DNA of 64,000 bases from Turritopsis dohrnii. Its lineage: Eukaryota; Cnidaria; Hydrozoa; Anthoathecata; Oceaniidae. Below, in pieces: positions 118 through 61,611 of the stretch. How positions within the stretch are numbered: the first letter of the stretch is position 1; each line of letters begins with the position of its first letter. Location: the NCBI GenBank assembly GCA_027922465.2, contig BQMF02000265.1, forward strand, positions 186,001-250,000, in the 5' to 3' direction. The notes under the pieces are model-generated. The model was not told the DNA's origin. It did not search any database and was given only the letters and a program-made list of their open reading frames with translations. The position numbers and the translations under genes are program-made.

Positions 118-152
118 CGGTGTTTAAACAGAAATTCGGGAAAGGTCTATAT
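118..152 (+). repeat. 35-bp dispersed repeat, copy A
   Basis: This 35-base block begins CGGTGTTTAAACAGAAATTC and recurs identically and in the same orientation at 16445-16479, inside intron 8 of the DUF4806 gene of the large DNA transposon. The flanks of the two copies differ. An exact 35-base match in AT-rich DNA is not chance. It is probably the edge of a dispersed repeat whose remainder I could not delimit. Confidence 0.6.
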
Positions 153-7459: not shown

Positions 7460-8424
7460 CGTGCCATCTAATTCACACTGTTCTTAAATAACGAATTAAT
7501 TTCATATAGTATCAGTTCCTTTAAAATTAATCAAATATAAAATTTTATGTATGCACTTTTCCGATACACGCTTTTTTTATATAAGAACCAGTAAAATATT
7601 AGTATTAAAAATTATTAGTAAGAAGTCAAGCTTAATGCAACAATATGGTTCACATACGTGCAGAGTAGTGGTAGTAGTAATTTATTAATTCTTGACAAAT
7701 TTGCAATAGCTTAAATATACTTATTCAAGTCAGCAAGCACTATCTTTATCATATATATAAATAAAAACTTGGAGGAAATCAACACACAACTTAAAGTCCC
7801 TTTGCTGTGAACTTGTTTGATTATTCATAGTTTAAAAACAACGAAGGTTAACATTTCTTTACTAATTTCACGGCAAGCGAAAAGAAAACTCACAAAACAA
7901 TCTGTATTGAAATCAAAAGCAAACTGACTTGAATAGAATATGAACTTATCGAGAAAAAAAAATCACCCAAAACAAAACCCACTGACTTTATAATACTTTA
8001 TAATGAACATTCCTGCGTAAAGGCTTTCTACTTGGCATTTCGTGAGTATCCTTATAAATCGATGACATGACGCATAAACTAATGTTCTATAGAAAGAACA
8101 CTCTTGAGAATAAACAGGAGATGTCAGGGGAATTCCCAGGAATAGTCCTGACATATTCAATATTTGTATTCAAAAACGTTGTCAGCAAAATTTTGCAGTC
8201 GTAATTTTTAATTTCGGCAGCTTCACGACGGCAAATGCTGAATGCCGTCGTAAATTCAGGGGGCTGCATTAGTTATTTAAAGGAAGCTCCTTGAAAACTC
8301 TAAATCTAAATCAGGGTTTATCAAGCTAGTTTTACTTGTTTTGTACTGAAATACACTTCTGGCATTTTTCAGTTCAGTTCACGTATGGAATTAGTGTTCA
8401 ATAGCGATATTTTCTTTTTAATTA
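7460..8424. other. No gene seen
   Basis: AT-rich sequence with short ORFs on the minus strand (7963-8269) that lack homology, splice context or biased composition. If the exon ending at 7459 is real, the first few hundred bases would be its 3' untranslated region; TATAAATAAA at about 7756 could act as a distal poly(A) signal. Confidence 0.3.
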
Positions 8425-8836
8425 ATCGCTCAATAAAAGGTTTAAAATCACTAATGTGTATTTAGGTATATACAAAGGTAGAAAGGTGACGATGAATATT
8501 GCATTTAAAGTGTTGAAGATTATAATGAGAAGGAAAAACAGACTGTGGCAAAGAATTTCAGAGAGTGGAGGAGTGAGGAATGAAACTTTGTTGGTAAAAA
8601 GTTTTAGATGACTTGGGATGTTGACCAGTGTGATCATGGCAATTAGATGAATATCTTGTGTTTCGCTTGAAAGTTTTTAAAGCAGGAATGAGAAAAGAGA
8701 GCCCAGTTGAAGATTTTCCGTAAAAGTATTTATAAAAGAGGCAAAGAGAAGCCACAGATCTGCGATGGGAGAGTGTGTGAAGTTTACTTGCAAGTTTATC
8801 ACCAATAGCATGTAATATGTAAATCATAGTGATCAA
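8425..8836 (-). pseudogene. LINE reverse-transcriptase C-terminal remnant
   Basis: Read on the minus strand, the sequence gives the familiar end of LINE reverse transcriptases: a histidine-arginine-rich start (LSHRRSVASLCLFYKYF), then KTFKRNTRYSS, then SFIPHSSTLWNSLPQSVFPS and YNLQHFKCNIHRHL. One frameshift separates the HSSTL part from the WNSLP part. The rest of the element is absent, so this is a 5'-truncated, decayed copy. The same family tail recurs on the plus strand at 62553-62757 (YDLQSFKSKVNRHL) with its poly(A) retained. Confidence 0.8.
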
Positions 8837-9387
8837 AAGAGAGCCTTACCTTCTTGGTACGATACCAACATCATCTAAGAACGCGTTAAAGTGATTTTCT
8901 GTTCATAAATTTTACATAGTCATCCGTTGGGTCGCTGCAAAAGAGAAATAACTTTATCAAATCAGTTTGATCATGGGCCTCCACTTTGTTCATGCGCAAA
9001 AGATGAGTCTGACGGAATCCGTTAACGGACGGACGGACGGACGGACGTTAAAGATGGCGGAATCAAATATAAACAAATAACCGAAAATGAAATTTGTCAT
9101 TGATGCAATTATTCAAACAAGTGCATGAAGACACGATATCTGTTTTGGATAATAGTACTGGTGATTCTGAATCAGCATTTTCTGTTTATTCCATTTGAAC
9201 CGTACCGTCGATAACATCGGACTCTGTTTATAAAGACAGAAAGAAAAAAGAAACTGCAAAAGTACCCTTCATAAAAGCGATTCCTTTTCGAGATCTATCG
9301 GACGAAAGCTGTACAATAATTAATTACAGCGAAAACTCGACTGTTTGAACATAGGGGATTGAGAGGTAGAAGTTAATTGGGCCTCAA

Positions 9388-9911
9388 TTGACCCTTGTTC
9401 CGTCTAGTCATCTTCAAACTGCTTCTAGCAGCGAAAACGAGATGCAAAGCGACGTGAACCACGGCGATAACGTAAACGACAGTAACTTAAACGCATCGAC
9501 AATAACAATCATCGATCAACAATTAATGACACAATCTTCATCTCAAACTGCTCTACAATGTGATATTTGCGGTCGAATTTTGGGTTCAAAGAGTGGAAAG
9601 ACAAACCATTTGAAAAAATGTAGATCGAAAAGACTGGAAGGAAAACTTGAAGAAACCATTCCATTGACGTCAACGGAAATTTGATCAGAATTTCTAGTTG
9701 GATTAAACAATCTTCCACCTAAACCACCTGATCCACCAACAACAAAATTGTCACCAATATCAGCTTTCTTCAAGGATGTTACAGTTATATATGAAGAAAT
9801 TGTATATTGGAGAAAAAACGTCTTCTTACTACCATCAGGAAAACAGGGCAAAATCTTTATTGAAGAAACTAACAACCTTTTGAATGAATGGCTTACAAAC
9901 TCCGACCCGAA
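9388..9911 (+). pseudogene. Non-LTR copy 1: N-terminal zinc-finger segment
   Basis: This is the start of the single long protein of the element. A C2H2/C2HC-type finger (CDICGRILGSKSGKTNHLKKC) lies at about 9559-9621. An in-frame stop at about 9682 is followed by continued homology in the same frame (SPISAFFKDVTVIYEEIVYW, then WRKNVFLLPSGKQGK). Copy 2 has the matching pieces (CEKCDKRFRTLRGALQHQRQC; WKRNLFMLPKGSTGK). N-terminal zinc fingers of this kind are known from R2 and NeSL elements, where they help recognise the target DNA. The reading frame is cut at the insertion point of the DNA transposon. Removing that insert and one AA dinucleotide restores phase with the downstream part. Confidence 0.75.
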
Positions 9912-10075
9912 CCCAGTGGGCACAAGACGTCATGATGACGTCATGAATTGGTCATATTAAGGTCGTGACGTCTGGATGACCAATCCGTGACGTCGCATAA
10001 TGTCACGAACTATGACGTCAGAGGACTGACGTCTTATGGACGTCGCAGCGACTACTTCTCCAATGGACGTCATTT
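9912..10075. repeat. Left subterminal array of GACGTC palindromes
   Basis: Eight GACGTC hexamers occur within 164 bp, two of them extended to the full cyclic-AMP-response-type octamer TGACGTCA. A matching array lies at the right end. Arrays of short motifs just inside transposon ends are typical binding sites for element-encoded proteins. Here the motif is also a consensus site for host CREB/ATF bZIP factors. Confidence 0.85.
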
Positions 10076-10539
10076 TCAGGACCAAAATATGACATTTACC
10101 GAAAACTCACCAAGATTTTTCTTCCAGGAGATAGCTATACAAATCACATTTAAATTGTGTTGAAAACGTGAAAAAAGCATGGTTATTGTACATAAGGCGC
10201 GGTTCCTTGAATAACCATAATGTACATAAAAAAAGCGCACCACGAAGTTAAAGGCGGCGATTTGTGTAGCTAATTTACCGAACGCCTGCTGTATCCACTT
10301 TGTAAATTCTTAGCGCGGGAAAACTCAAAGTGTGTTGTGTGGTTGTGTTGGAGATGGAGTTGCAAGCCTGTATATCAATTGGTAACTTCTCTGTTTCACC
10401 TGTGATTTAATAATAGGATTATAAAATTTCTTAATTATTTAATGGTATGGTAGAATTTCTTTATTATATTCTTGCATCGATCCTGCTTTTGTAGCTACAT
10501 ATATACTAAGTAATTAGTAGTAAGTAGAATTATATTTAT

Positions 10540-12455
10540 TTATCATCATATGGTGGGAGACCACCCTAATAGCACAAGGCTAATCAGGAGGAGGCCACCC
10601 AACAAAAAAGAATTTGCAAGTTTCGTGAGACTATGCCAAGACAAACAAACAAAAAACAAACAAAAACAAGGAAACAAATAAACCAAACAAGAACCAATCC
10701 AAAAAAGCAAATAAATGTAGAGTGCCTGCTCCCCTTACCGCTAACTTTAATTATAATGTCGCAAAATTCGTCAATGCAAACGTAAAAACACAGTTAAATG
10801 GATTTAGCACCACAAATGGTCATCCTAGATACTAAATCAACAAGAACAAACAAGGAGAATAAGATTGATAACAAATACTGTAATCGTAAACATCATCGGG
10901 GTGATGTTCCTCTTTCCGCTAACTTGTTCCTCTTTCCGCTAACTAATTTCACGTTCGTCAAAAGTGATGCAAATAACAAAATTTTATGGAATTTAGTGTT
11001 CATAATAACAGTTTAATCCCTTTTCTCTCAATTTAAGTGCTTTCCTCCTTTGCTTCTGCAGATATAAGACAACCACAGGCTTAATAAAAATGCATGCCTT
11101 TACTGTTTACAAATCGAAGGCAGCCATATTTTTATGAGCGAAGTTTTTTAGAAAACAATAGTGCCGTCTCGACAAGTCAACTTTTGATCGCAAAAATCTA
11201 GACACGTGATGGGAATAGAATTGCCCTATTGTGAGCCTAGAGTAATTATACAGTAAACACAGACATCGTTAATTTGTTAAAAGCATGAACGGCGAATGTA
11301 ATTATCAACATGTATTGAATTATTTTTTACACTCGCAACATATGAAATCAATTGTTTCTACACTTGTGGTGGAGATTTTGAACATGCGGAGGATACACGC
11401 TAGAATGATCCTATAGAATTCAACGTAGTTGCAATTGCTAAACAGCGTTAACGCAATAAAAATTTTTTAATGACAGTTGGTGAAAAGGTTGGGTGAAAAG
11501 GTCTACGAAACAAGTTTCACGTTTTCTTGAACGATAAATCTATGGGTGATATTATCAACGTGGGATTTCACGCTAATTGAATGTCTGGAAAAAAAATTTA
11601 ACTGATTGAATAATCAAGCTGAAATCAGTGCTAACAAGAACAAATTTTGTTGCTATAGCGGAGAAAGGACACGTGGTTACAGAATTACCTTGCTGTAAAT
11701 TTTAGATGATTTGCTCGCGTATACGATATATACAAGAAAACTGTTTGTGTGGATAAAATCTCAGATGTTGGTAGCATTCAAGACAGCAGAGGAATAACAA
11801 GGAATCGATATGCTCCGTTATTTATGACACTGAATTTTGAAGCATTTATTTTTCGAGGAAGCCATTTTTAATATTATTTTCACAATGATCGCGACCCGGT
11901 GTTAGATTTTACTCTATTAATCAGTAAGTATTTGGCAATTCACTTTGAAACTTTCCATAATGATGGCTGAATGAATATGCTTTTAGATAATAATTAGTTT
12001 GGTTTGATTTGTTGTCTTTAAATGAAGTAAATAAACCATCAAACTCAAAGTTAGCGGCAAGCGGCACATAGCGGTAAGGGGAGCAGGCACTCTAAGTGAA
12101 AAATAATGATAAAAAAATTATATATAACGTTCTATGTATATTTTCCTAGATAGTGTGAGTATGTCAGTGATTTTAGTTTGGAGATAGACAAGTCAACAAG
12201 CCTAACAGAAGGAAATTTTAGCTGAAGGTTATTCCACTGTTGAATTGAAAGTCGAGTCAGGGAATTTAAACCAAAGGTTTTAGTATTGACATTAGATCGA
12301 TTTAGAAGGCCTAAAGTACTTCCTCTTGTTTCAATAGAGTGACAAATTTCATTAAAATTTATGGTTTGCAGAGTGTCTACGGGCAGTTTGCCATTTAAAT
12401 ATTGATGTACATAAAGAATATTCAGGACCTCAACTTGATCAAAAATTTTATATAC
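10540..12455 (-). pseudogene. 5'-truncated LINE inside the DNA transposon, itself interrupted
   Basis: On the minus strand, 12132-12455 encodes a typical RT C-terminus ending in a stop: VEVLNILYVHQYLNGKLP, then a stretch with NTKTFGLNSLTRLSIQQWNN, then SKLKSLTYSHYLGKYT. The 3' untranslated part resumes beyond an inserted element (10720-12092) at about 10717 and runs to about 10540. It ends with GGTGGTCTCCCACCATATG and an A/T-rich tail of TAAATAAATA type. The same GGTGGTCTCC-type 3' end recurs near 61350. The 5' end is cut at about 12455, as expected for target-primed insertion. Confidence 0.75.
10720..12092. mobile_element. TA-flanked non-autonomous DNA element
   Basis: The inverted repeats are GAGTGCCTGCTCCCCTTACC on the left and the same 20 bases read inward on the right, continuing GCTA. 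TA dinucleotides flank both ends, as for Tc1/mariner-type insertion. The interior has further CCGCTAAC motifs (about 10917-10945 and 12050) but no transposase. It splits the LINE remnant and is the innermost layer of the stack. The rest of the interior holds no supported gene. Confidence 0.8.
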
Positions 12456-12683
12456 TTATGTACTTAAAAAATAGTAACAGAAACTCACTATTTCTTAACC
12501 CAAATACAGATGAAATTTATTACTACTTCTACCAGTTTCTTGATATGAACATGTTAACAGTGATGGACTGATGAAATTTCTGCTGCTATCAAGCCCTATA
12601 TATAAGAATACACTGCCCCTGATTATTATCTTAGATATATTTTAACTAATATTTTAACTTTTTTAACCTAAAAAAGCATCTAT

Positions 12684-14594
12684 ATGTATCAACGTCAATG
12701 GAGAAGACGACTGTTAACAGAGAGATGGCTCTTACAATCTGATGTTGAACATGATGTTGAACATGATGATGTTGAGAGAGTCGGTGAAAGCAAAGAAAAT
12801 AATGATCTTGATCAGGAGGCTAACATTGGTTCAAATTCATTCATTGATTGTGATTCAAATGTTGAGGAATTGAGCAACCACTGGTTATCAAGCGATTCTG
12901 ATGATGAGTTAGACTTTAATCACAATAAATCTGATGATAATTTTGCTCAATGTCTTGCTGAATGGGCAACTCAAAACTCAATTACGCGCAATGCCTTAAC
13001 CTCTCTTCTGTCAATTCTACGTGAGTATGGGCATGATGATATTCCGAAAGATGGTAGAACACTCTTGAAAACCCCAAGAGAAATTGAAACAATAAAAAAA
13101 TGTTCTGGAGACTACATTTACTTTGGTATTGAGAAAACCATTAGAAGCAAAATTACCCTCAATGATATCCAAGGGCTGCAGGAGATAAGGTTATCAGTAA
13201 ATGTTGATGGATTGCCTTTATTTAAATCTTCAGGAAAACAAGTTTGGCCTATTTTAGGTTTATTGTTAGATACAAATACTAATCCATTTATGATAGCCTG
13301 TTTTTATGGTGAAAACAAACCAAAGGATAGTGATGAGTTCCTTAAAGATTTTGTAAATGAGTATTTGGAATTACAAGCCAATCATGGAATCGTTATTGGA
13401 GGGGCAAATGTTCCAGTAACTATTGTGGCATTTCTGTGTGATGCACCAGCTCGTCAATTCCTAAAGGGAATTAAGAGCCATAATGGTTACAATGCTTGTG
13501 AACGGTGTCAAATAAAAGGTGAAAGCATTGATAGTAGGATGGTATTTTCAGAAACTGACTGCTTACTTAGAACAGAAGAAGAATTTAGGAGGCATGCGTA
13601 TGTTGATCATCAAACTACAGAAAGTCCACTCTTGCGCATAACAGAAATTTCGCTAACTAAAGATTTTGCTTTAGACTATCTTCATCTGGTTTGTCTAGGA
13701 GTCGTGAGACGAATACTCATCTTCCTTAAAGAAGGACCAAGAGTATGCAGGCTGAGTTTGCAAGGAATTCATCTGATTTCTGAAAAGTTACTATCTTACA
13801 ATGGAATGCTGCCATCTGAAATTGCCAGGCAACCTAGAAGTTTAGTAGAAATTAAGAGATGGAAAGCCACCGAATTTCGATCTTTTGTTTGTTACACAGG
13901 AATAGTAGTATTGCGTTCTGAGCTCTCAAAAGAAATGTATATTAATTTTGTATCACTTTCTATTGCCGTAAGGGTAATGTTGAATGAAGATCCTGAATTT
14001 AGAAATCATTATCTGGAGTATGCAAGGAAGTTACTGGTTTATTTTGTAAAAATGGCTCCACAATTATATGGTTCTTATTTTGTGGTCTATAATGTACACA
14101 ACCTAATCCACTTACCTGATGATGTTCTGCATTTTGGCAAATCGCTTGATGAAGTTTCTTGCTTCCCGTTTGAAAATTTTCTGCAAATGCTCAAAAACCT
14201 TGTCAGAAATTCACACAATCCAATTGCTCAAGTTACCAAACGAATCCATGAGATAGAGCAGGTAGGAAGAAAAGACCATTCCAAAATAGTAACAAAAGTA
14301 TCATCATCAGTCAAAGATCGGTGGTTTATTTTGGAAAATGGGGATATCGTATGTGTTGTTGGGAAAGAAAATAATGACTTTGTATGTCATGTTACTGATT
14401 CGAAAAAGAAGACAGACTTTTTCAAGGAACCCTGTAACTCGTCAATGTTTGGTATATACTTTGTAGAAAGAAGGAATCTTGGGATTAAAAGAAAATTCAT
14501 CATTCCACAACTGCTGACAAGAAAATTGGTAGCAATGGAAACAAGAGATGGATATGTTTTTGTGGAACTTTTGCACAATGTTGACCATAGTTAA
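12684..14594 (+). CDS. Transposase, Tnp2/Transposase_21-like, intact
   Basis: One uninterrupted frame of 636 codons. An acidic N-terminus (residues about 20-90) precedes the conserved part: NVDGLPLFKSSGKQVWPILG with a candidate catalytic D175, then FYGENKPKDSDEFLKDFV, LCDAPARQFLKG with a second acidic candidate D253, a cysteine pair in NACERC (about 274-279), and DYLHLVCLGVVRR (D331). This pattern matches a family of animal transposases I know as Transposase_21/En-Spm-related. The third catalytic residue could not be assigned by eye. It should cut and rejoin element ends in the nucleus. The first ATG was taken; a second in-frame start is possible. The lack of stops over 1.9 kb, next to heavily decayed elements, suggests recent activity. 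Confidence 0.75.
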   Translation: MYQRQWRRRLLTERWLLQSDVEHDVEHDDVERVGESKENNDLDQEANIGSNSFIDCDSNVEELSNHWLSSDSDDELDFNHNKSDDNFAQCLAEWATQNSITRNALTSLLSILREYGHDDIPKDGRTLLKTPREIETIKKCSGDYIYFGIEKTIRSKITLNDIQGLQEIRLSVNVDGLPLFKSSGKQVWPILGLLLDTNTNPFMIACFYGENKPKDSDEFLKDFVNEYLELQANHGIVIGGANVPVTIVAFLCDAPARQFLKGIKSHNGYNACERCQIKGESIDSRMVFSETDCLLRTEEEFRRHAYVDHQTTESPLLRITEISLTKDFALDYLHLVCLGVVRRILIFLKEGPRVCRLSLQGIHLISEKLLSYNGMLPSEIARQPRSLVEIKRWKATEFRSFVCYTGIVVLRSELSKEMYINFVSLSIAVRVMLNEDPEFRNHYLEYARKLLVYFVKMAPQLYGSYFVVYNVHNLIHLPDDVLHFGKSLDEVSCFPFENFLQMLKNLVRNSHNPIAQVTKRIHEIEQVGRKDHSKIVTKVSSSVKDRWFILENGDIVCVVGKENNDFVCHVTDSKKKTDFFKEPCNSSMFGIYFVERRNLGIKRKFIIPQLLTRKLVAMETRDGYVFVELLHNVDHS

Positions 14595-14819
14595 AAGACG
14601 CTTCCTTATTGTATATATCAAGTAGAATAATAACCCCTTTATGTTAGTTTGAAGTTAAAAATCATGTTGCTTGGGATATTCCTTTTTTTTCTTGTAAAAG
14701 CTGAGGAATCATGAATTGTCTGGTAGTAACTTTGAAATGAATCTTTTAACCATTATTCATGTATTTTTCAAAATAATTTCTTTCCTATTTTCCTCCAAGT
14801 AAAACAGTGAAAAAGTGAA

Positions 14820-16933
14820 ATGACCAAAAAATATTCAAGAGTGAAGTTTCTTGAGGATGAAGAAATTAAAGTTTCTGTTGTCCCTACAAACTGGATCATT
14901 GGCGATAAGATGTTCTGGTCCAATGGAGTGAATGCAGTCAGGGATAAACTGCAATGCAAGCCGGTACAGAAAGGCTGGAAAGCATACCATATTGTGAAAA
15001 TTGTTTTTCAAGATGGTAAGGATTCAATTGATTTTGTTTGTTTTGCAGTATTTTATCAGTAGGAACTGAGTTTTTGGTATGTATTTGGTATGTATTGTAG
15101 ATGACATGGATCTGTGTGAAGAATACGAATTCAGTAGCACTGACTGTGAAGAGTCTACTCCAAAGAACAAAACAAAAACATCAGGTACTAGTATGATACA
15201 CATGATTATGTTTTGGAACATTTTCAGAGCTTTTGTTCTTATCAAAGTTTTTTTCTTCAGTTTCATCAAAACCAGCTCTCCCAACTCCGCCTTGTCAATC
15301 AGAGTCTGTTCCAAGAAAATCAGGTTGAATATTAAATCCCTTAAACTTATTAATTTTCGCGAAGATTTGATTTCGCAATTGTTTTTGGAAAATTCGTGAA
15401 ATTACATACTGTTGAATTATGTCGATATAAAAAAAACTACAGTTGAACAAGTTATGTTTTGAAACAGTCAAATGACATAAGAAATACTATTATTTCAGGT
15501 CTGGATGGTGCGGCAAATGATTGTGAGTGATATCTCCTTGATTTTGCATTTAATTTTTACTGAATTGCTTCATTTTGATTTATTTTGTATTTTTCAGCAT
15601 TAATTTCATTCAAAAAATCCAGTTCAAAAAGGTTAGGATTGGAAGAATTACCGACTCAGCAAGAAACAACAAAACGAAAAAGAAATCCTGGCTATGATGA
15701 GAATTTCATGTTTGAATCTAGTATGTATTATAGATAGATCAAACTTATTGTAATTGTGTCAAGATTTTAAATAGTAAGATTAAATTTAGGTTCTGAAGAA
15801 TCCTCCTCATCCCTGGAGCATACTGTAGGAGGTACATACTGTAAATCAGCAAAGTCTCCGGCAAAGAAGAAAAGAAATGGTGCAGAATATAACAAATCCA
15901 TGTACCCATTATCTGAATCTGGTATGTGTATAGCATTATGGTCATGAAAATTCTATCAAACTTCAATTACTTTAATTACATTTAATGTTTCCCAATTAGA
16001 CTTCCAGCGTAAAGTTCTTTCTGGTTTATCAGAAATAATTTCCTTTTTGAAATCAAATGCACCCCATGGCGATTCTTCACTGATAACAAAACGCAGTGAA
16101 ACTGTGGAAGAGTTAGAACAGTTTGATGAGGAGTTGCAGGAGAAGGAGAAATACGTTGAAGTTGTGAGTAAAATCATTGACCTAAACATTTGCCACTGCA
16201 AAAAGACTTTATACCATATGATTGATGTTTGATATAATAATTTAGGTGAAAAGACTATCAACCATTGGCGGAAAAGACATTAGGGAAAACGCGAGGAACA
16301 TTTTATCAATGTAAGCTCGTTGCTACGTTTTCTACTGTTTTAATAATTACAAATATCTATTAGTACTTAGTAATTTCCATTTATTATTTCTATTCCACAG
16401 TGGGATAATTAAAAATACTTATACTTAGTGACTTAGCCATAGCGCGGTGTTTAAACAGAAATTCGGGAAAGGTCTATATTTTTTTTTCTCGTTTTCGTTA
16501 CAATAATCCTTATATTCTTTTGTAAATACCTTTCCTTTTTTGTATTTTTACGTCACTTTCTTTTTAGACTAACTACCGATGAAGTATTGTCCTGTTATAG
16601 TATGTACGGCAAGAAAGGAAAGAGGGAGTTTGGGACTACAAAACTTTTTGCAGCTGTTTCTGGTTAGCCAATATTAAAGATTTTTTTTATTTAACCATTT
16701 AAGGGTTTTCCTCAACAGTGTTCCTATCATAGGGCTTTTAAGCTTCAGTGCCAATTAATCGGGGTTTTTTTATTGAATGACTGCAGCTTACATTTAGTGA
16801 TTTATCCATACCTAAATTTTGTTTAGATGCTATCCTCGTGAGTAAAAAGGATGCAACAGCAACCAAAGTGAAACGGTGTATGGTTGATGTCCTCAAACAT
16901 GCGCCAGAACGTGTGAAAAAGAATAACGTGTGA
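14820..16933 (+). CDS. DUF4806-domain protein of the DNA transposon, ten exons
   Basis: Ten exons join in phase with GT-AG borders: 14820-15015, 15101-15184, 15261-15323, 15499-15522, 15598-15720, 15790-15921, 16000-16163, 16246-16310, 16568-16662, 16827-16933. The product is 350 aa. The N-terminus (NWIIGDKMFWSNGV, about 21-40) is followed by a long low-complexity, serine- and lysine-rich middle. From about residue 222 comes a DUF4806 domain: VEELEQFDEELQEKEKYVEV, VKRLSTIGGKDIRENARNIL, YSMYGKKGKREFGTTKLFAA. The domain is known from proteins linked to transposons in insects and cnidarians, and its biochemical role is unknown. By analogy with CACTA TnpA, the protein might bind the GACGTC arrays; this is inference. 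No exon carries a stop or shift. Confidence 0.75.
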
Positions 16934-17904
16934 AAAAGACTGTATACCTAATGAAGTCAATGAATGACAATTGAGCATTCGCGTTACCTTGTTTATTCTT
17001 TGACAATTAGGTTTATTGTTAACGATTGTACTCTTTTGTGCTTAATTGTAGGGGGTGAGGGGGTCGAATAAGCAGGAGGGTAGGTATTCTGGGGGAGAAC
17101 CACAAAACGAGGGAGGAGGGTCAAAATAAAATGGCCTAAGGGAACATTCAAATATTTTACTTAATATTGCCAGGGAGTTGAAAATAAATTTTTGTAACTT
17201 TGTAAATTGTGATACTTCATACGTGCATTGCAAATCTCACTGTCAAATTAAGCACGATATGAGTATGATAAGTACCGATATTTAGGCTATATTTATATTT
17301 ATTTACTTATGGTTAAATTTTTGTCTTTTCTTAATTTTACTTGGCAGCTTAAATTCAAGAAGAAATAGTCGTTCGTACATAGTTTGTTAAGCCTATAAGC
17401 TACCTGTGTTTTTAAAAGGATTTCCCTAACATGTAATTAGCCAGAACACTAGTTGTAATGCTTTTGAAAGAGTTAGGTAGTGTAAACAAGAGACAAACGA
17501 CAATCTAAGAAATATTTTTCTCCCGTACTTTGGCAAAAGGAAGCAAGTAACTTTTCCGTAATTTTGAGAAAAACAGGAATATATATGCTTGAAAAGGTTA
17601 GCCTTCAAGTTCTATGTAAAGTATAGTTAGTCAACTAGTATTAAAGACGCGCAGCTTCCTCAAACGTCAAAATCTCATTTTGTCACACTTCCTTTTTGCC
17701 AAAGTAGGGTAGTTTTATAATTTTAAAATTATAAGTTAAAATTTTTATATAGTTCCTAAAACAATTTGTAATTTCCATTGTATTTATGTTTAATTATTTT
17801 GTCAAGATATTCGATTTTACTTACTTGATCTGTAGTTGTGTGTGCAGCTAACTCTGTTGACTGACATTTAATTTCCCGGGCCGTTCTCAAAATCTTGTTT
17901 GAGC
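16934..17904. other. Downstream region of the DNA transposon; no gene seen
   Basis: Lies between the DUF4806 stop codon and the right-hand GACGTC array. It holds a G-rich patch at about 17050-17130 (GGGGGTGAGGGGGTC and GGGAGGAGGG), otherwise AT-rich sequence. The short minus-strand ORFs have no recognisable content. The 3' untranslated region of the DUF4806 gene probably lies in the first few hundred bases. Confidence 0.4.
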
Positions 17905-18221
17905 TTGACGTCTTAGCGACGTTTCCCTGACTTTCCTTAATGTCATATAAGCGCTGTATTCCGACTTTAGACGTCTTGATGACGTCCTAACGACGTGCCT
18001 GTGACTAATATATGTCATGAATAGCTCTCATAATCACGACGTTTTGACGACGTTATAACGACGTCTTAATGATGACGTCTTAATGTCGTCATATAGACGT
18101 CACCAGATGACGGTCGTCGTACATTTCATCTGTGACCAACTACCGACGTCTTGGTGACCTCAATGTTGGTCACGTCTAGACGTTTAAATGACGTCATCAT
18201 GACGTCTTTGTGCCCGCTGGG
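17905..18221. repeat. Right subterminal array of GACGTC palindromes
   Basis: Nine GACGTC hexamers plus several GACGTT and GACGTG variants within about 317 bp, mirroring the left array. The last two fall inside the terminal inverted repeat (ATGACGTCATCATGACGTC). The array is longer and more degenerate than the left one, an asymmetry also known for CACTA ends. Confidence 0.85.
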
Positions 18222-21040
18222 AAGGCGATCGCCATTAAAGCAGCGATGATTATGCCAAGCTTGCTTCTTCAAAAGCCATCCAAAACTTCAAAAGCTAAAG
18301 ACCATGTTAAAGCTTTAGATAGAAGACTTAAGCTATGGCAAGAGAGAAACATCAAAGAACTATTTGAAGAGGCACAATCTATCCAAAAACAGCTGGTAAA
18401 TTCTAAAAGAACACAATCAATCCTCGAAACGTCGAAAAAATTTGTCCGGGAAATGGAAAAAGGGGATATCACAGGTGCCATCAAAATTCTATCAGAAAAC
18501 ACATGTAATGGTATCCTCCCACTAACCAACAAAACATTAGAAAAACTACAACTCAAACATCCAGACAAGAATACAGCTCTTCCAGAAATACTTCTTTCTG
18601 ATGAAATAAAGAAAACACACCCGATCAGATTTGAAGAGATCAATGAAGAATCAGTAAAAAATGCAGCGATGAAAACATCAGGAGGCGCCGGTCCCTCTGG
18701 ATTAGATGGAGGTTGGTGCAGAATCCTAACATCCAGAAGCTTTGGAAGTGCTTCAATAGATCTGCAAAAAACAATAGCGGAAATGGCCAAACGACTGTGT
18801 GCCGATGAAGAAAGTCACTTTGAAGCTCTGATGGCTTGCAAACTGATACCATTAAACAAAAATCCTGGCATTCGTCCTATTGGAATTGGTGAAATCTTGA
18901 GAAGAATCATCAGCAAGACCGTCATGATGAACGTTAAAAAGGATGTTTGTCAAAGTGTTGGATCCCTTCAAACTTGTGCAGGTCAAGAAGCCGGTATAGA
19001 AGCAACCATACACGCCGTGAGAGAGCTCTTTCAATGCGATTCTACTGATGGGATAATCCTTGTTGATGCGGCAAATGCGTTTAACGCGAGTGTGTTAACC
19101 TAACAAGATGCGATCATGCTATCTTTATGGTTAAAAGTCTGTTATTTGCGTTTGAAAGAACGAGGCAATAACAACAAGTTTTGCTCGTTTATCACAGACG
19201 TAAATAACAAAGTTTTGACCGCAAACTTTAATGATCGGATCTTGTTAGCTTAACTGTATGACGCAGTGAATAGAGAAGTTTTCCTTCACAACATCAAGAT
19301 CATCTGTCCACCTATAGCTACGTTCACTCATAGCTGATATTCCTTAAATGCCAGACTCTTCGTCATTGGAGGGCAAGAACTTAGTTCAAAAGAAGGGACA
19401 ACACAAGGCGACCCAATTGCAATGACAGTATATGCAACGGCTATCATTCCAATGATTCTCTCGCTGCTAGACGAGTTCGATGAACATAAAAATCCACTTC
19501 CTACAAAGATCGTTGGATATGCTGACGATGTTACGTCAGCGGGAGAAATCAATAAACTTAGATTATGGTGGGACAAATTGAAGGTGTTGGGACCAAAATT
19601 TGGATATTTCCCTGAAAGCGAAAAGTCGTGGCTAATTATAAAGCCGGAAAAATTGGAAGAGGCTGAAAAAATCTTTGACGGAACCAATATAAACATTATC
19701 ACCGAGGGAAGGAGATTTCTTGGTGGCTTCATTGAAGATGATATATTCAAAAATAAATACGCCGAACAAAAAACAATGGATCTTTGCAAGCAGTTAGAAA
19801 AACTCTCTGAGATTGCATTGTTTGAGCCTCAAGCAGCATACAGCGCATTTATCTTTGGCTTTAAGAACAAAGTCACCTATTTGATGAGAACTCTACCAAA
19901 CATTAGTGAACAGCTTGAGAAACTAGATGAAGTTATCACCAAAAAATTCATTTCAGCAATAGTTGGTGGGATAAACATATCAATAATGAAAGGAAATTAC
20001 TGGCACTTCCACCTAAACTCGGAGGTATGGGAATTCCACTGTTTGGAGAATCTTCAAAATTTGAACATCAAAACTTGATATTAATCACTAACAGTTTAAA
20101 ATCCAATATTAAAAACCAAAACCCACAATATGAAGTGGATAGTGACCTTAAAAAGAAAAAGATGCAAATCAAATCCGAAAAGCATGTCCGTCAAACTAAT
20201 CAGCTGCAGCAAATAAGGTCTCAAATGAATGAAATGCAGCTCAGATTAAACGACCTCGCAAGTGAAAAGCATGCATCACTTTGGCTTACAACACTGCCTC
20301 TAAAAGACGAAGGATACACGCTTACAAAGCAACAATTTTGGGATCTTGTCCGAATGAGATATGGCTGGCAACTCAAAAGACTTCCTGGAGTTTTTGAATG
20401 TGGTATTTCATCCACAGTTGAACATGCACTGAGCTGTAAAGAAGGAGGTTTCGTGTCTCTTAGACACATCCACATTCGTAACGTTACTGCTAGATGGTTA
20501 AGTGAATGCTGCAAAGACGTTCGAATAGAGCCTCAGCTACAGCCGCTGACAGGTGAGACTCTGACATCTACAAACACAAGCGATGAAGCAAGACTCGACA
20601 TATCCGCTAGAGGTTTTTGGGAATCATATCAACTGGCATTTTTAGACATAAGGGTCTTTAACCCGATGGCCAAGAGATATATGAACCACAACATGAAAAA
20701 AGCGTACGAGATCAATGAAAAAGAAAAGAAGCGGAATTACAACGATCGGATTTTGCAACTCGAACACGGAACTTTTACTCCTCTTGTGTTCGCCGCAACT
20801 GGTGGCCTTGGACGTGAATGTGAGAAATTCTACAATCGACTTGCATCCATTCTCTCTGAGAAAAGGGAATGTACATACAATATTACCGTAAACTGGATCA
20901 GACGTAAGCTTTCATTTTCACTAATTAACTCGATAACGACATGCATAAGAGGCAGCAGAGGTAACAGATCAGACCAGTTAAAATCCTCGACAGACCATGA
21001 CGTTGCCGTCAGTGAAATGCTGGCGACGAAAAATCAGTGA
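18222..21040 (+). pseudogene. Non-LTR copy 1: reverse transcriptase and RLE region
   Basis: Continues the protein split by the DNA transposon. RT landmarks: GPSGLDGGWCRIL, RPIGIGEILRRIISKTV, LVDAANAFN, EGTTQGDPIAMTVYAT-type (SKEGTTQGDPIAM) and the catalytic GYADDVTSAG. C-terminal landmarks: a knuckle region ending HALSCKEGGF, then RHIHIRN, EARLDISARGFW and LAFLDIRVFNP, which resemble the PD-(D/E)XK restriction-like endonuclease of R2-group elements, and finally GTFTPLVFAATGG. Breaks: an insertion at 19094-19254, a stop near 19333 and a frame change near 20030-20075. The family acts by nicking DNA and priming reverse transcription at the nick. This copy cannot make the whole protein. Confidence 0.8.
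19094..19254. mobile_element. 161-bp MITE inside the RT domain
   Basis: The inverted ends are GTTAACCTAACAAGATGCGA on the left and GTTAAGCTAACAAGATCCGA read inward on the right. It interrupts the reverse transcriptase exactly after LVDAANAFN; homology resumes with NREVFLHNIK just beyond its right end. Imperfect ACGCGAGTG/ACGCAGTG flanks may be a target duplication. It is non-coding, and the superfamily is uncertain. Confidence 0.7.
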
Positions 21041-21189: not shown

Positions 21190-24100
21190 GACTGTATGGC
21201 TGAATGGCTTCCGAAGATGGCGGACGCAAAAACCGTCTAACGGAAATTTGACGTTGAAAAATAAAGGAGATTACGATTAAACTTATCTTTTTATGCAACA
21301 AATTGCAACAAAAAACAGAAGAGAATATATCCTAACTCCGCAGTTTGAGGAGTGGCACAAAAGAAATGGACATAACAGTTAATGCATCCGTTGTTGAACA
21401 AGTTGCAGAAGTTCCATGTGAAAAATGTGATAAACGATTCCGTACACTCCGAGGCGCATTGCAGCACCAGCGACAATGTAAAGCGATGTCGAACAGGGTT
21501 AATGTAACAGACATTGATCATCAACCTCTTTCATCTGTGGAGCATCCGGACGCGGGAAATGCGGAAAATGAAGATAATGGAGTTAATAAACCAGAAAGAC
21601 TCCACTGGGGTATCTCTAAAGCAATCAAGGACATCAATGACTGCTACGAAAAAATAGTGTTCTGGAAGCGCAATCTTTTCATGCTTCCGAAGGGATCTAC
21701 CGGCAAGGAATATATTAGAGAAATTAACAAGGCTACTGAATGCTTGGGTCGAAAAATCCCCATTGCGTGAATGTGCTATGACGGCTATGCACATCATGCC
21801 GGCGCTTTTTCTCCAAAAGCCATCGAAGGAATCAAAAAGCAAAGAACACGTTAATGCGCTAGAAAGACGATTAAAACTGCGGAAGGAGGGACAATTCATA
21901 AGGCTTTTTCGAGAAGCTGAAGCACTACAGAAACGACTTCCTAAACCCATAACCAAGAAAGACATGACATCGCTATCAAGGAAGTTTTGTGATTTGATGC
22001 AAAGGGGTAACATCAACGGCGCAATAAAGCTGCTGACAAATAATATGCAAAATGGAATTCTTCCATTGAACGAAGAAACGATTACTTCTTTGCGCCTGAA
22101 ACATCCTCAAAGAAAAATGCCAATGGAAGACTCTCTATTGGCCTGCAACCAACGGTCGAGCCAGTGATATTTGACGTTATAGATGAAGACATGGTAATGA
22201 TGAAAGCTGCACAGTTAACAAAAGGCGGGTCTGGTCCATCCGGAATGGACGCTGACGGTTGGCGACGAATACTGATTTCAAGAGTTTATGGAAATGCAGG
22301 AAGTGAACTCAGTAGCCATAGCATGTGTTATACGTTCAATCTGCACCGTTGAAATCGCAGATAATAGCATTGCAGCGCCTTGATGGCGTCAAGACTGGTA
22401 CCTCTAGATAAAAGACCAGGTGTTCGACCAATTGGTGTTGGAGAGGTCCTACAAAGGATCATGGGCAAAGTCGTCATGGGAGTTGTGAAAACTGACGTTG
22501 TGTGGTCAAAAATCTGTGGAGCAGCGATCCATGCCGTGAAGAAATTGTTCAATGACACTACTACAGATGCAGTCCTTCTGGTTGATGCAGCAAATGCTTT
22601 TAACAGTCTTAATCGGCAGGTATTTCTGCATAACATTGGAATAACATGTCCGATTATTGCCACCTACGTCAGAAATTGCTATTCGAACTCAGCACGACTA
22701 TTCGTAATAGGCGGAATCGAGATAAAGTCAGATGAAGGAACAACTCAAGGCGACCCATTGGGAATGGCAATTTACGCAATCGCAACAACTCCTCTACTTG
22801 ATTCAATATCAGAATCCACCAATGATGAAAAAGAGGTCGCCTTTGCCGACGACATCACTGCTACAGGGAAGCTCGATGCCCTTAAACATGGTGGGACCTG
22901 CTAATGGTAATTGGCCTCCAGTTTGGCTCATTTCCACAGCCGACGAAATCTTGGCTCATTGTTAAACCTGAAGAACTTGAAAAAGCCAATGCCAAATTTC
23001 AGAATAGTAACATCAAAATCACATCAGAAGGGAAGAAGCATCTGGGAGCAGTTATTGGAAGTGAGGAATGCAAAAAGAAATACCTTCGTGAAAAGGTCGA
23101 TGAATGGATCAAAGATATCCGTCTACTCTCCAAAATTGCAATCACCCAACCACAAGCAGCGTATGCATGTTTCATCAGCGGATACCAGCATTAAATGACA
23201 TACTTTATGCGCACGATTCCTGGATGCGATGAAGAACTTTCACGGATCGATGACGCGATGCGTCACAAATTCATTCCAGCAATAACCGGAGGCCACATCG
23301 TAAATGGTTCTGAACGCCAACTGCTGTCACTTCCACCAAGACTTGGAGGCCTGGGCCTGAGGATATTCAGTGAATGTGCTAATGAGGAATACAACAACTC
23401 GCAAAGTGTGACTATAGATCTCCAAGAGCAGATCTTAGGCAAGCACACAGTCAACCACGAGGCCAAGATGAAACAACATATAAAGAACGAACGACAGTAA
23501 CAGTTGAAGCAAAAACTTGATACACTGCTCAGTACAATGTCGGAAGAAGAAAAAAGACGAACAGAAGCAAACAGTCAGAAAGGCGTATCCAATTGGCTAA
23601 CATCTCTGCCAATCAAAGAATATAGTTTTGATCATCTGTCAAAACAAGAATTCAGAGACGCTATTCGCTTGCGTTATGGCTGGACTCTGGAAAGGCTCCC
23701 AATAACATGTGCATGTGGATCTCGATTCGACGTGTCACACGCTTTATCATGCAAAAAAGGTGGATTTGTCACACTACGACATAATGAGCTACGTAACATC
23801 ACCGCCGATCTTCTTAATGAAGTATGTCACGATGTCAAAGTCGAACCAATGTTAGGGGAATTAGATAGACGATGAACAATTGCGCGAAAGAATCGGCAAC
23901 ACAAGCAAAGAAGCGAGATTAGATGTCAGTGCATCAGGGTTCTGGGCTTCTGGTCAAAGAGCATTCTTCCGATATAAGGGTCATAGACCTGAACGCTCAG
24001 CGATACAAGAACCAGGAACTCTCGAAGTGCTTCTCAAGAAACGAATCGGAGAAAAAGCGACAATATAATGAACGAGTGTTGCAAGTTGAGAATGGCTCCT

Positions 24101-58879: not shown

Positions 58880-61611
58880 CCGTGGAATGGGGTGACTTGG
58901 GACGGAAATTACCGTGTACCTTTGAACCTCGAATACTCATTTTATGTCACACAAAAAGCTAGGAAACTTATAGCCATGTATTTCTAACTGCTTTCTTCTT
59001 ACTTCACCAAAATATCTAGGTAAAAAATATTTTCTTCAAAATCTGAACTAATTTATCATTTTTTTCATTTTCCCCACTTTTCGTTATGCCAACAAAAATT
59101 TACTGCACAAGGTTGAAATAACTTCATTGTTTTGTGTATTTTATTTCCCTGTGAAATTGTGACTGACATTCAAAATACACCTGTTCTTAGGGTGAAATTT
59201 TGCATTGAAAGCCAGCATATGTTACTATGGGGTGACTTGGGACAGCACGTTCAAGAAATTGAACCTAGCAATAGTCTTATGCAGGTGACTGGGGGAGGAA
59301 ACAATTATTTGTTTCAACATTATACCTGCTTCTGATGTTTCTCAGAATGGTTTTATACATATGTAAGATACAAATACATTTTTTTCAGGGTAAACAATAA
59401 TAGTAAAATGAGAAAGTACAAGCCAAAGGTTGGTTCGAAGAAAAAGAAATACATGAATTTTACTGAAAGTGTATTGGAAAAAGCAACCATAGCTTTTCAA
59501 CAAGGAACTTCATACAGAGAGAAGTGGAAGACCAATTTGGAGTTCCAAAATCTACTTTGCACAGGAGGATTAAAGATACTAACAAGAAGACTATGGGTGG
59601 TCAAACTGCTATAAACCGAGAGGAGGAGCAGACTTTTGATCAGCATCTAATTGTTGTATCGGAATGGGGATTTCCATTCTCAAATCTGGATCTCCGTTTA
59701 CTTGTCAAGGGCTACTTAGAAAGAACAAGTCGCAAAGTGAAGTGCTTTAAAGACAATACACCAGGAGAAGACTGGGCAAAAAGTTTTTTTAAGCAATGTA
59801 ATTGGACGGTAAAACTTCTAGAGCTGAAATGAGGAAAGATGATTTCATTAAATACTTTGAGAATTTGAAAGAAGTATTAAAAGATGTTCCACCAACTAAT
59901 ATTCTGAACTATGATGAGACAAACTTATCAGATGACCCTAGTAATGAAAAGTTGATCTTTAAAAGAGGTATTAAATACCCAGAACGCATCCAAAACTATA
60001 CGAAAAGGAGCACATCCGTCATGTTTTGTGGCACTGCTACAGGAGATCTGCTTGAGCCATATGTAGTCATATGTAGTCATTTTTTTAGTCATTTTTCTCC
60101 TGACATAATAAGACTTTGTGAAGAAAATAACATTCGATTTGTTTGTCTTGTGCCAAATAGCACTCATCTGTCACAACCCCTTGATGTCGCCTTTTACGGT
60201 CACATGAAAAGAAAATGGCGCAAAATCCTAAAAGAATGGAAAATGAAGAACCAAAGTTTGACTACCCTACCTAAGGACTCATTTCCAAATCTTCTGAAGG
60301 AACTGATGTATTCCTTGAATTTAGAAAATTTGTCTGGATTCAAAGCTTGTGGGATATATCCTATGGATCCAAGTGAAGTCTTAAAAAAACTTCCAGGAGA
60401 ACCCGCTGAAGAAATACAGCTTAATGTTTCTCAAGCCGTATTGCAGCAGTTACAAAACATGCGACATCAAGAGGAGCGACCGAAAATAAGAAGAAAGAGA
60501 GTTCAAGTGCAACCTGGGAAAAGTGTAACATCTGCTGATATTGAAAGTGACCAAGAGGAAGTTGAAGTTGAAGAATCTAGCTCATCAGACGAAGAAGACA
60601 TTAGTAATGAAACTGATACTGAGGAAAATGATGAAAATGTAGCAAATTTGAAACTCTTGCCTTATTCAAAAGTGAAGGAAGGGGATTGGGTTAAGGTGAT
60701 GTATGAAAGTGAAGTCTTCCTTGGGAAAACAATAAAAAAACAAGCAGGAGAAGTTCTGGAGAGGTGCTTAGAGAAACCGTTTGCAGTTGGTGGACCAAGC
60801 AATTTAGAGAGAGAGGATTCTGCCGTATTTTACGAACTGGTTTATGAAGCAAATGTTATTCCTGTACTTAAAAAATTTGGGAGAGCCTGGCAGTATACCT
60901 TTTGAGCTCATTATAACATTGCTATATATGGCTGTTCTGGACCATTGACATTTTTGTTACATTTCTTTTCAATTTATTCTGACACTTAGCTATTTTCACC
61001 TATTTTCTATAGTAAATAGCATGCTTGAAATTGAATCACACAACCTCTTTGTTTTGTTACCAAAGATGATTAATCATCATAAAATCATGATTAACCTTTA
61101 GGTTAGTTTGATGAAGGACTTTGTTTGAGTTTTGATAACCACTTTTTTTGTAATCTGCTCCCGGAGCTCATAAACCTTAAATTGTGACTCATGTAATTGG
61201 TTTGATAGTTTTATTTAGTGTATTTTAAAAAGGCATTGCTGTCCCAAGTAACCCCACCCATGTAACTGTTCCAAATCAGTTGATTTGAATTGAATTGTAA
61301 TTTATTCTGATAGATTATAGTACATTGCAATCATATAACTATTATATTGGAGACCACCAAATAGCAAAAACTAATCTAGTGATTTTGAGTATCGTCCAAA
61401 GTCACCCCAACCAGGGGTGACTTGGGACAGACATGTTTTTTTTAAAAAAAAGCTTGGAAACGAAAAAAATATTTTTGATGCTTATTTGTATATATGTATT
61501 CTGTGCGGTTTCATTCATAAAATGACATATGCTGAGACACGGCACAAAAAGGCATAGCCTAGATAATGTTTAACAAAGTTCAAAATTGTCCCAAGTCACC
61601 CCATTCTACGG
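58880..61611 (+). mobile_element. pogo/Tigger-type DNA transposon
   Basis: The ends CCGTGGAATGGGGTGACTTG and CCGTAGAATGGGGTGACTTG (inward) continue GGAC and are flanked by TA. The GGGGTGACTTGGGAC motif recurs inside at about 59229, 61240 and 61414, so there are subterminal copies near both ends. It encodes a degenerate DDE transposase. A LINE 3' end (GGTGGTCTCC type, minus strand, about 61290-61365) is embedded in its right part. Confidence 0.88.
59408..60905 (+). pseudogene. pogo/Tigger transposase, frameshifted and missing a catalytic block
   Basis: It starts MRKYKPKVGSKKKK. The helix-turn-helix part is split by a frameshift near 59540 (LEKATIAFQQGTSYR, then FGVPKSTLHRRIK), and a second frameshift lies near 59800. 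The DDE domain opens with NILNYDETNLSDDP (first aspartate near 59912) and ends with VPNSTHLSQPLDVAFYGHMK (third near 60184). The block that should carry the second aspartate, before SHFS, is missing: PYVVI runs straight into a short GTAGTCAT duplication (60065-60092) and then SHFSPDII. The C-terminus keeps an acidic stretch (SSSSDEEDISNETDTEENDE) and an intact tail to the stop. The copy cannot catalyse transposition. Confidence 0.88.

Follow-up and report, generated by a model that had tools for sequence, protein, structure and literature searches.

A two-gene DNA transposon of Turritopsis dohrnii carrying a DDE transposase and a DUF4806 gene

Why does a DNA transposon carry, downstream of its transposase, a many-exon gene for a domain of unknown function? 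The question is posed by an element within a 64,000-nucleotide stretch of the Turritopsis dohrnii genome (contig BQMF02000265.1), hereafter the window. A preliminary description had read it as a two-gene, perhaps recently active transposon whose DUF4806 protein might bind the ends as TnpA does. Having compared the element with its relatives across the genome, we consider a full two-protein reading, in which a DDE transposase works with DUF4806 as a TnpA-equivalent end binder, to be fairly probable.

Boundaries and coding content

The CCCAG and CTGGG termini lie at exactly 9912 and 18221, as previously placed. Both ends of this copy start with CCC, and the terminal ~34 bases of the two ends are nearly identical when inverted.

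9910..9911: left target-site duplication AA (flank comparison and restored retroelement frame)
9912..9945, plus strand: left terminal inverted repeat, CCCAGTGGGCACAAGACGTCATGATGACGTCAT
18188..18221, minus strand: right terminal inverted repeat
18222..18223: right target-site duplication AA (flank comparison and restored retroelement frame)

In silico excision of the element together with one AA restored a 368-aa open frame of the retroelement that it interrupts, whereas excision of the element alone, with the AA kept, did not join the two retroelement frames. The earlier claim of a two-gene element bounded by one set of inverted repeats is upheld. Since the DUF4806 gene sits inside an element that has broken into a retroelement frame, and recurs between the same ends elsewhere with different flanks, it is highly improbable that its exons are part of an adjacent or enclosing host gene. 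The interrupted frame (window 9370-9911 and 18222-19103) appears reverse-transcriptase-like by eye, as does a second, related but diverged retroelement stretch at 21658-22904, whose ORF aligns gap-free with the joined frame, also by eye.

The first gene reads through, as described.

12684..14594, plus strand: transposase ORF, open, 636 aa

Residues D175, D253, C272, C275, H472, H476 and E497, assigned by motif, are invariant in all 41 aligned sequences, and these motifs together with a fold comparison support a DDE enzyme whose fold resembles that of RAG1 and Transib. The proposed assignment to Transposase_21 was not borne out: a Pfam profile search with the window transposase returned no match to that family at E<=1, its sole Pfam match being DUF4218 (E 0.038, below cut-off). 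At E<=1, Transposase_21 was matched by 2 and DUF4218 by 27 of the 41 aligned relatives, and the tie to Transposase_21 would be a remote relationship only.

The second gene is spliced, with the following predicted structure.

14798..14799, plus strand: putative splice acceptor, 20 nt ahead of the DUF4806 start, pyrimidine fraction 0.93-0.94
14820..16933, plus strand: DUF4806 gene, ten exons, 350 aa
Exons 1-5: 14820-15015, 15101-15184, 15261-15323, 15499-15522, 15598-15720
Exons 6-10: 15790-15921, 16000-16163, 16246-16310, 16568-16662, 16827-16933
16000..16662, plus strand: exons 7-9, carrying the DUF4806 domain (residues 242-311)

All nine predicted introns are GT-AG and the exons join in frame, in agreement with the ten-exon gene first described. 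The spliced product matches PF16064 (DUF4806) at 1.5e-7, with 32 bits against a Pfam gathering cut-off of 25, whereas three unspliced frames of the gene show no DUF4806 match at E<=1; the joins of exons 7-9 are therefore directly supported by homology. The same exon structure is found in the copies. A segment of intron 8 (16445-16479) is an exact 35-bp match to window 118-152.

The acceptor at 14798..14799 suggests a possible leader splice to the DUF4806 gene. A strong acceptor lies upstream of 6 of 16 DUF4806 starts (background 18%), and AATAAA or ATTAAA occurs within 200 nt upstream in 10 of the 16. On these counts, a single, alternatively spliced transcript shared by the two genes is a weak proposal.

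Copies and relatives in the genome

Across 436 Mb in 891 contigs, nine sites, the window included, carry the transposase DNA at 99-100% identity. The remaining eight copies were retrieved, and both ends were seen in seven (the left end of L024 is unmapped). At least part of both genes is present in all eight; no copy with ends excluding one of the genes, which the preliminary description had named as contrary evidence, was found in this sample, which was located via the transposase and from which derivatives without a transposase would escape. Divergence from the window copy ranges from 11/6,934 to 73/6,639 positions (0.16-1.1%). Both genes are intact in two of the nine copies (the window and L019); L021 retains an intact transposase, and L022 and L024 an open DUF4806 frame, without both genes being intact. 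Seven of the eight two-ended elements are flanked by 2-bp duplications (AA, GT, AG, TA, AA, AG, AC), and comparison of the flanks of L026, in which both ends are present, showed no target duplication. Among the 16 ends of these eight elements, one (L022, left) is CCTAG.

The window copy differs from its relatives upstream of the transposase.

10720..12092: nested insertion, 1.37 kb, with 24-bp perfect inverted ends (GAGTGCCTGCTCC...), TA-flanked

This segment is missing from all seven other copies in which the site is mapped (L024 is unmapped there), and the empty site can be read in L019; it is a later insertion, foreign to the family. The suggestion of recent activity consequently holds in part: the low divergence indicates that the family moved recently, with most copies now broken, but the activity of the window copy itself is doubtful, given the nested insertion ahead of its transposase. 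Intron 8 of the window copy is also short by ~172 bp that seven of the eight other copies carry, L023 having a different gap there. L022 and L024 share an identical right flank (AACGTTAGATTTAGC) and may represent a duplicated locus or two haplotypes.

We then turned to the pairing of the two genes outside these copies, using a purpose-written spliced protein-to-DNA aligner to detect DUF4806 genes. At six diverged transposase loci, with 36-54% identity to the window transposase over the aligned pieces, a DUF4806-like gene lies downstream on the same strand in every case, with scores of 157-420 against 85-138 for shuffled queries. Several of these models contain stops, and PF16064 was detected in 6 of 7 models (the six loci plus the window). 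When 3.5 kb downstream of a further 20 loci was scanned, 16 scored above the highest (145) of 50 controls, which comprised window pieces on both strands and antisense test pieces; ten of the 16 models were scanned for PF16064, which was present at E<=0.1 in eight and above the cut-off in seven. The systematic pairing proposed at the outset is thereby substantiated, with DUF4806 a recurrent, element-borne partner in copies and other loci alike. With this pairing repeated among related transposons of the genome, DUF4806 has the look of a regular component of their machinery. We regard both the anatomy of the element and the transposase-DUF4806 pairing as firm within the Turritopsis dohrnii genome.

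It could be argued that DUF4806 is mere cargo, a gene taken from the host in a single capture and transported ever since. In favor of this, no DUF4806 gene was found within 3.5 kb downstream at 4 of the 20 loci; a wider search there gave one candidate farther away, two marginal scores and one blank, so that at least C330 lacks the gene even in the wider stretch. Some transposase ORFs at these four loci are open, and the partner may therefore be dispensable in places. Against it, the gene recurs at the same place and on the same strand in 16 clusters of models (23 models, 13 of them stop-free), and 20 of the 23 models contain an exon of exactly 65 nt. The DUF4806 frame is constrained as well: the L033 gene shares 141 of 340 aligned residues with the window gene, and over 340 codons the two differ 149, 123 and 215 times at first, second and third positions, the excess at third positions being the pattern expected for a selected protein. 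On this evidence, we judge simple cargo improbable.

Related families share the layout of the ends. The C200 element, whose transposase is 47% identical to that of the window, begins CCCAGCGGGCACAAGACGTC, carries a GACGTC array at each end and is flanked by an AA duplication, and by coordinates holds its transposase and DUF4806 gene between these ends; its relative C10 has an AT duplication. L027 has the same end sequence, with 47 of 70 GACGTC sites falling between its ends, and no matching target duplication was found for it. A genome-wide count gave 573 occurrences of the 20-mer CCCAGYGGGCACAAGACGTC and zero of its reversed control, indicating that such ends far outnumber the coding copies seen.

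Several further observations concern these and other transposons. Long GACGTC arrays occupy L027:1-2400 and 7850-9050 and are partly repeated within the stretch as 63-bp inverted copies. On contig C481, transposases of two different families of the present kind (198753-200660 and 205376-207259) lie less than 5 kb apart. Another related family (for example C27:502433, C134:611915 and C483:66622) comprises numerous transposase ORFs of ~680 aa, nearly equal to one another and for the most part free of stops, and, judged from these reading frames, looks recently active. The window also contains a 367-aa open frame (59802-60905) that we take to resemble a piece of a pogo/Tigger-type DDE transposase.

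GACGTC arrays and the role of DUF4806

If DUF4806 binds the element that encodes it, candidate sites would be expected at the ends.

9926..10071: GACGTC array of the left end, eight copies in the first 200 bp, putative binding sites
17907..18207: GACGTC array of the right end, nine copies in the last 400 bp, putative binding sites

The arrays sit directly internal to both inverted repeats, and GACGTC is absent from the intervening 7,710 bp; the remaining 55,690 bp of the window contain five. Arrays at both ends without interior sites are what an end-binding role predicts, and they are also compatible with regulation. The main rival is accordingly a regulatory one, in which DUF4806 serves the element as an anti-silencing factor or a transcription factor and is unneeded for cutting, like VANC of plant VANDAL elements. 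VANC proteins are described as sequence-specific anti-silencing factors (PMC10398659), TnpA itself is reported to reactivate a methylated promoter (PMC1636069), and BANP and BEND3 are reported to prefer unmethylated CpG (PMC11472053), a dinucleotide contained in GACGTC. Weighing these precedents against the distribution of the arrays, we consider a purely regulatory role unlikely, though a good deal less so than cargo.

Whether DUF4806 is a DNA-binding domain was approached through its similarity to BEN, of which it has been called a subtype (PMC11075544, citing Pan et al. 2023). The window protein does not match Pfam BEN (PF10523) at E<=1; the best of the other models, that of L046, touches it at E 0.0019, with 18.8 bits, below the cut-off of 23.2. 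When 13 DUF4806 domains were used as a profile in a PDB sequence search, BEND6 (7yul) ranked third (E 0.21) through one collinear stretch of 66 positions (domain E 0.24). The two 14-3-3 entries ranking above it are pieced together from weak stretches, none of which passes, and a TetR entry also has one weak stretch. These profile similarities are weak; with the published subtype assignment, they make the DUF4806 protein probably a BEN-type DNA binder.

We therefore propose a model of two cooperating proteins. The transposase would cut at the CCC-ended inverted repeats, and insertion would duplicate 2 bp of the target. The DUF4806 protein, as the working equivalent of plant TnpA, would bind the GACGTC arrays inside both ends, assist the transposase by drawing the ends together and probably regulate the element's own promoter. 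Binding to the GACGTC arrays in aid of the transposase is the most likely function of DUF4806, and a TnpA-like end-binding role is our best inference; we likewise infer its DNA binding, its choice of site, the need for both proteins and the shared, alternatively spliced transcript.

Relation to known transposon systems

The element is best read as a cut-and-paste DNA transposon with two proteins, from the TRC branch of animals, which is related to CACTA and falls in the CMCT clade. According to DeMarco et al. (2006), SmTRC1 and other animal TRC elements have CCC-starting ends, for example the Aedes end CCCAGTCAAC, and 2-bp duplications, and encode one large CACTA-related transposase ORF and a smaller spliced product downstream, which those authors expect to act like TNPA (PMC1636069). 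Our element shares the CCC ends, the 2-bp duplication, a large transposase ORF and a spliced, smaller downstream gene. Further marks of TRC elements are a Transposase_21 domain, to which the tie here would be remote, and alternatively spliced products, for which this element offers predicted splice sites. It differs in that SmTRC1 is 4.5 kb long with 54-bp ends, and in that the small products PrA and PrB are stated to match nothing known, DUF4806 being unmentioned in the sections consulted (PMC1636069). The CMCT clade is characterized by 2-5 bp duplications and, in most cases, CA..TG termini (PMC12730594); the 2-bp duplication falls within this range, and the termini here are CC..GG, the CA..TG form being stated for most cases only. 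The CACTA ends and 3-bp duplication of CACTA/EnSpm proper are absent, the ends here being CCC and the duplication 2 bp.

The animal TRC/CACTA-like class is thus already known, and the DUF4806 partner, whose pairing is established within one genome, is the new part. In a search of published papers, Repbase and preprints aside, four named DUF4806 and none was found to tie it to a transposon. Genome papers report 69 and 54 DUF4806 genes in two Hydra species (PMC7642931), enrichment in a beetle (PMC13270666) and DUF4806 genes on zebrafish chromosome 4 (PMC11075544). We tentatively put forward a broader possibility, which we hold with somewhat less than even confidence: DUF4806 may fill the so far vacant place of TnpA in animal CACTA-like transposons, reading the palindromic, CpG-holding GACGTC; many "host" DUF4806 genes may belong to transposons or descend from them by domestication; and some BEN regulators of animals may trace back to proteins that bound the ends of transposons. 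The two-protein model gives DUF4806, so far without known function, a possible role and a ligand that can be tested. It puts a named domain to the second protein that DeMarco et al. anticipated, and it hints at a plan of two proteins common to the CACTA-like elements of plants and animals, each with its own DNA-binding partner. Caution is also advisable where animal genomes show expanded DUF4806 families, since these may be transposons.

Comparison with Transib and RAG1 concerns the enzyme: structural alignments with the window transposase show 8-11% identity, and these systems differ in their ends and duplication length, with no RAG2-like partner here. The Transib duplication is 5 bp long. 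Another comparison is with En/Spm, in which TnpA binds subterminal repeats and neither protein can be spared (PMC2613891). A single shared transcript is known for En/Spm, not for the window element. The two are alike in their 8.3-kb length, in a transposase ORF lying upstream of a many-exon gene (tnpA, with 11 exons, encodes the DNA-binding protein) and in subterminal repeat arrays at both ends (PMC2613891, PMC1636069).
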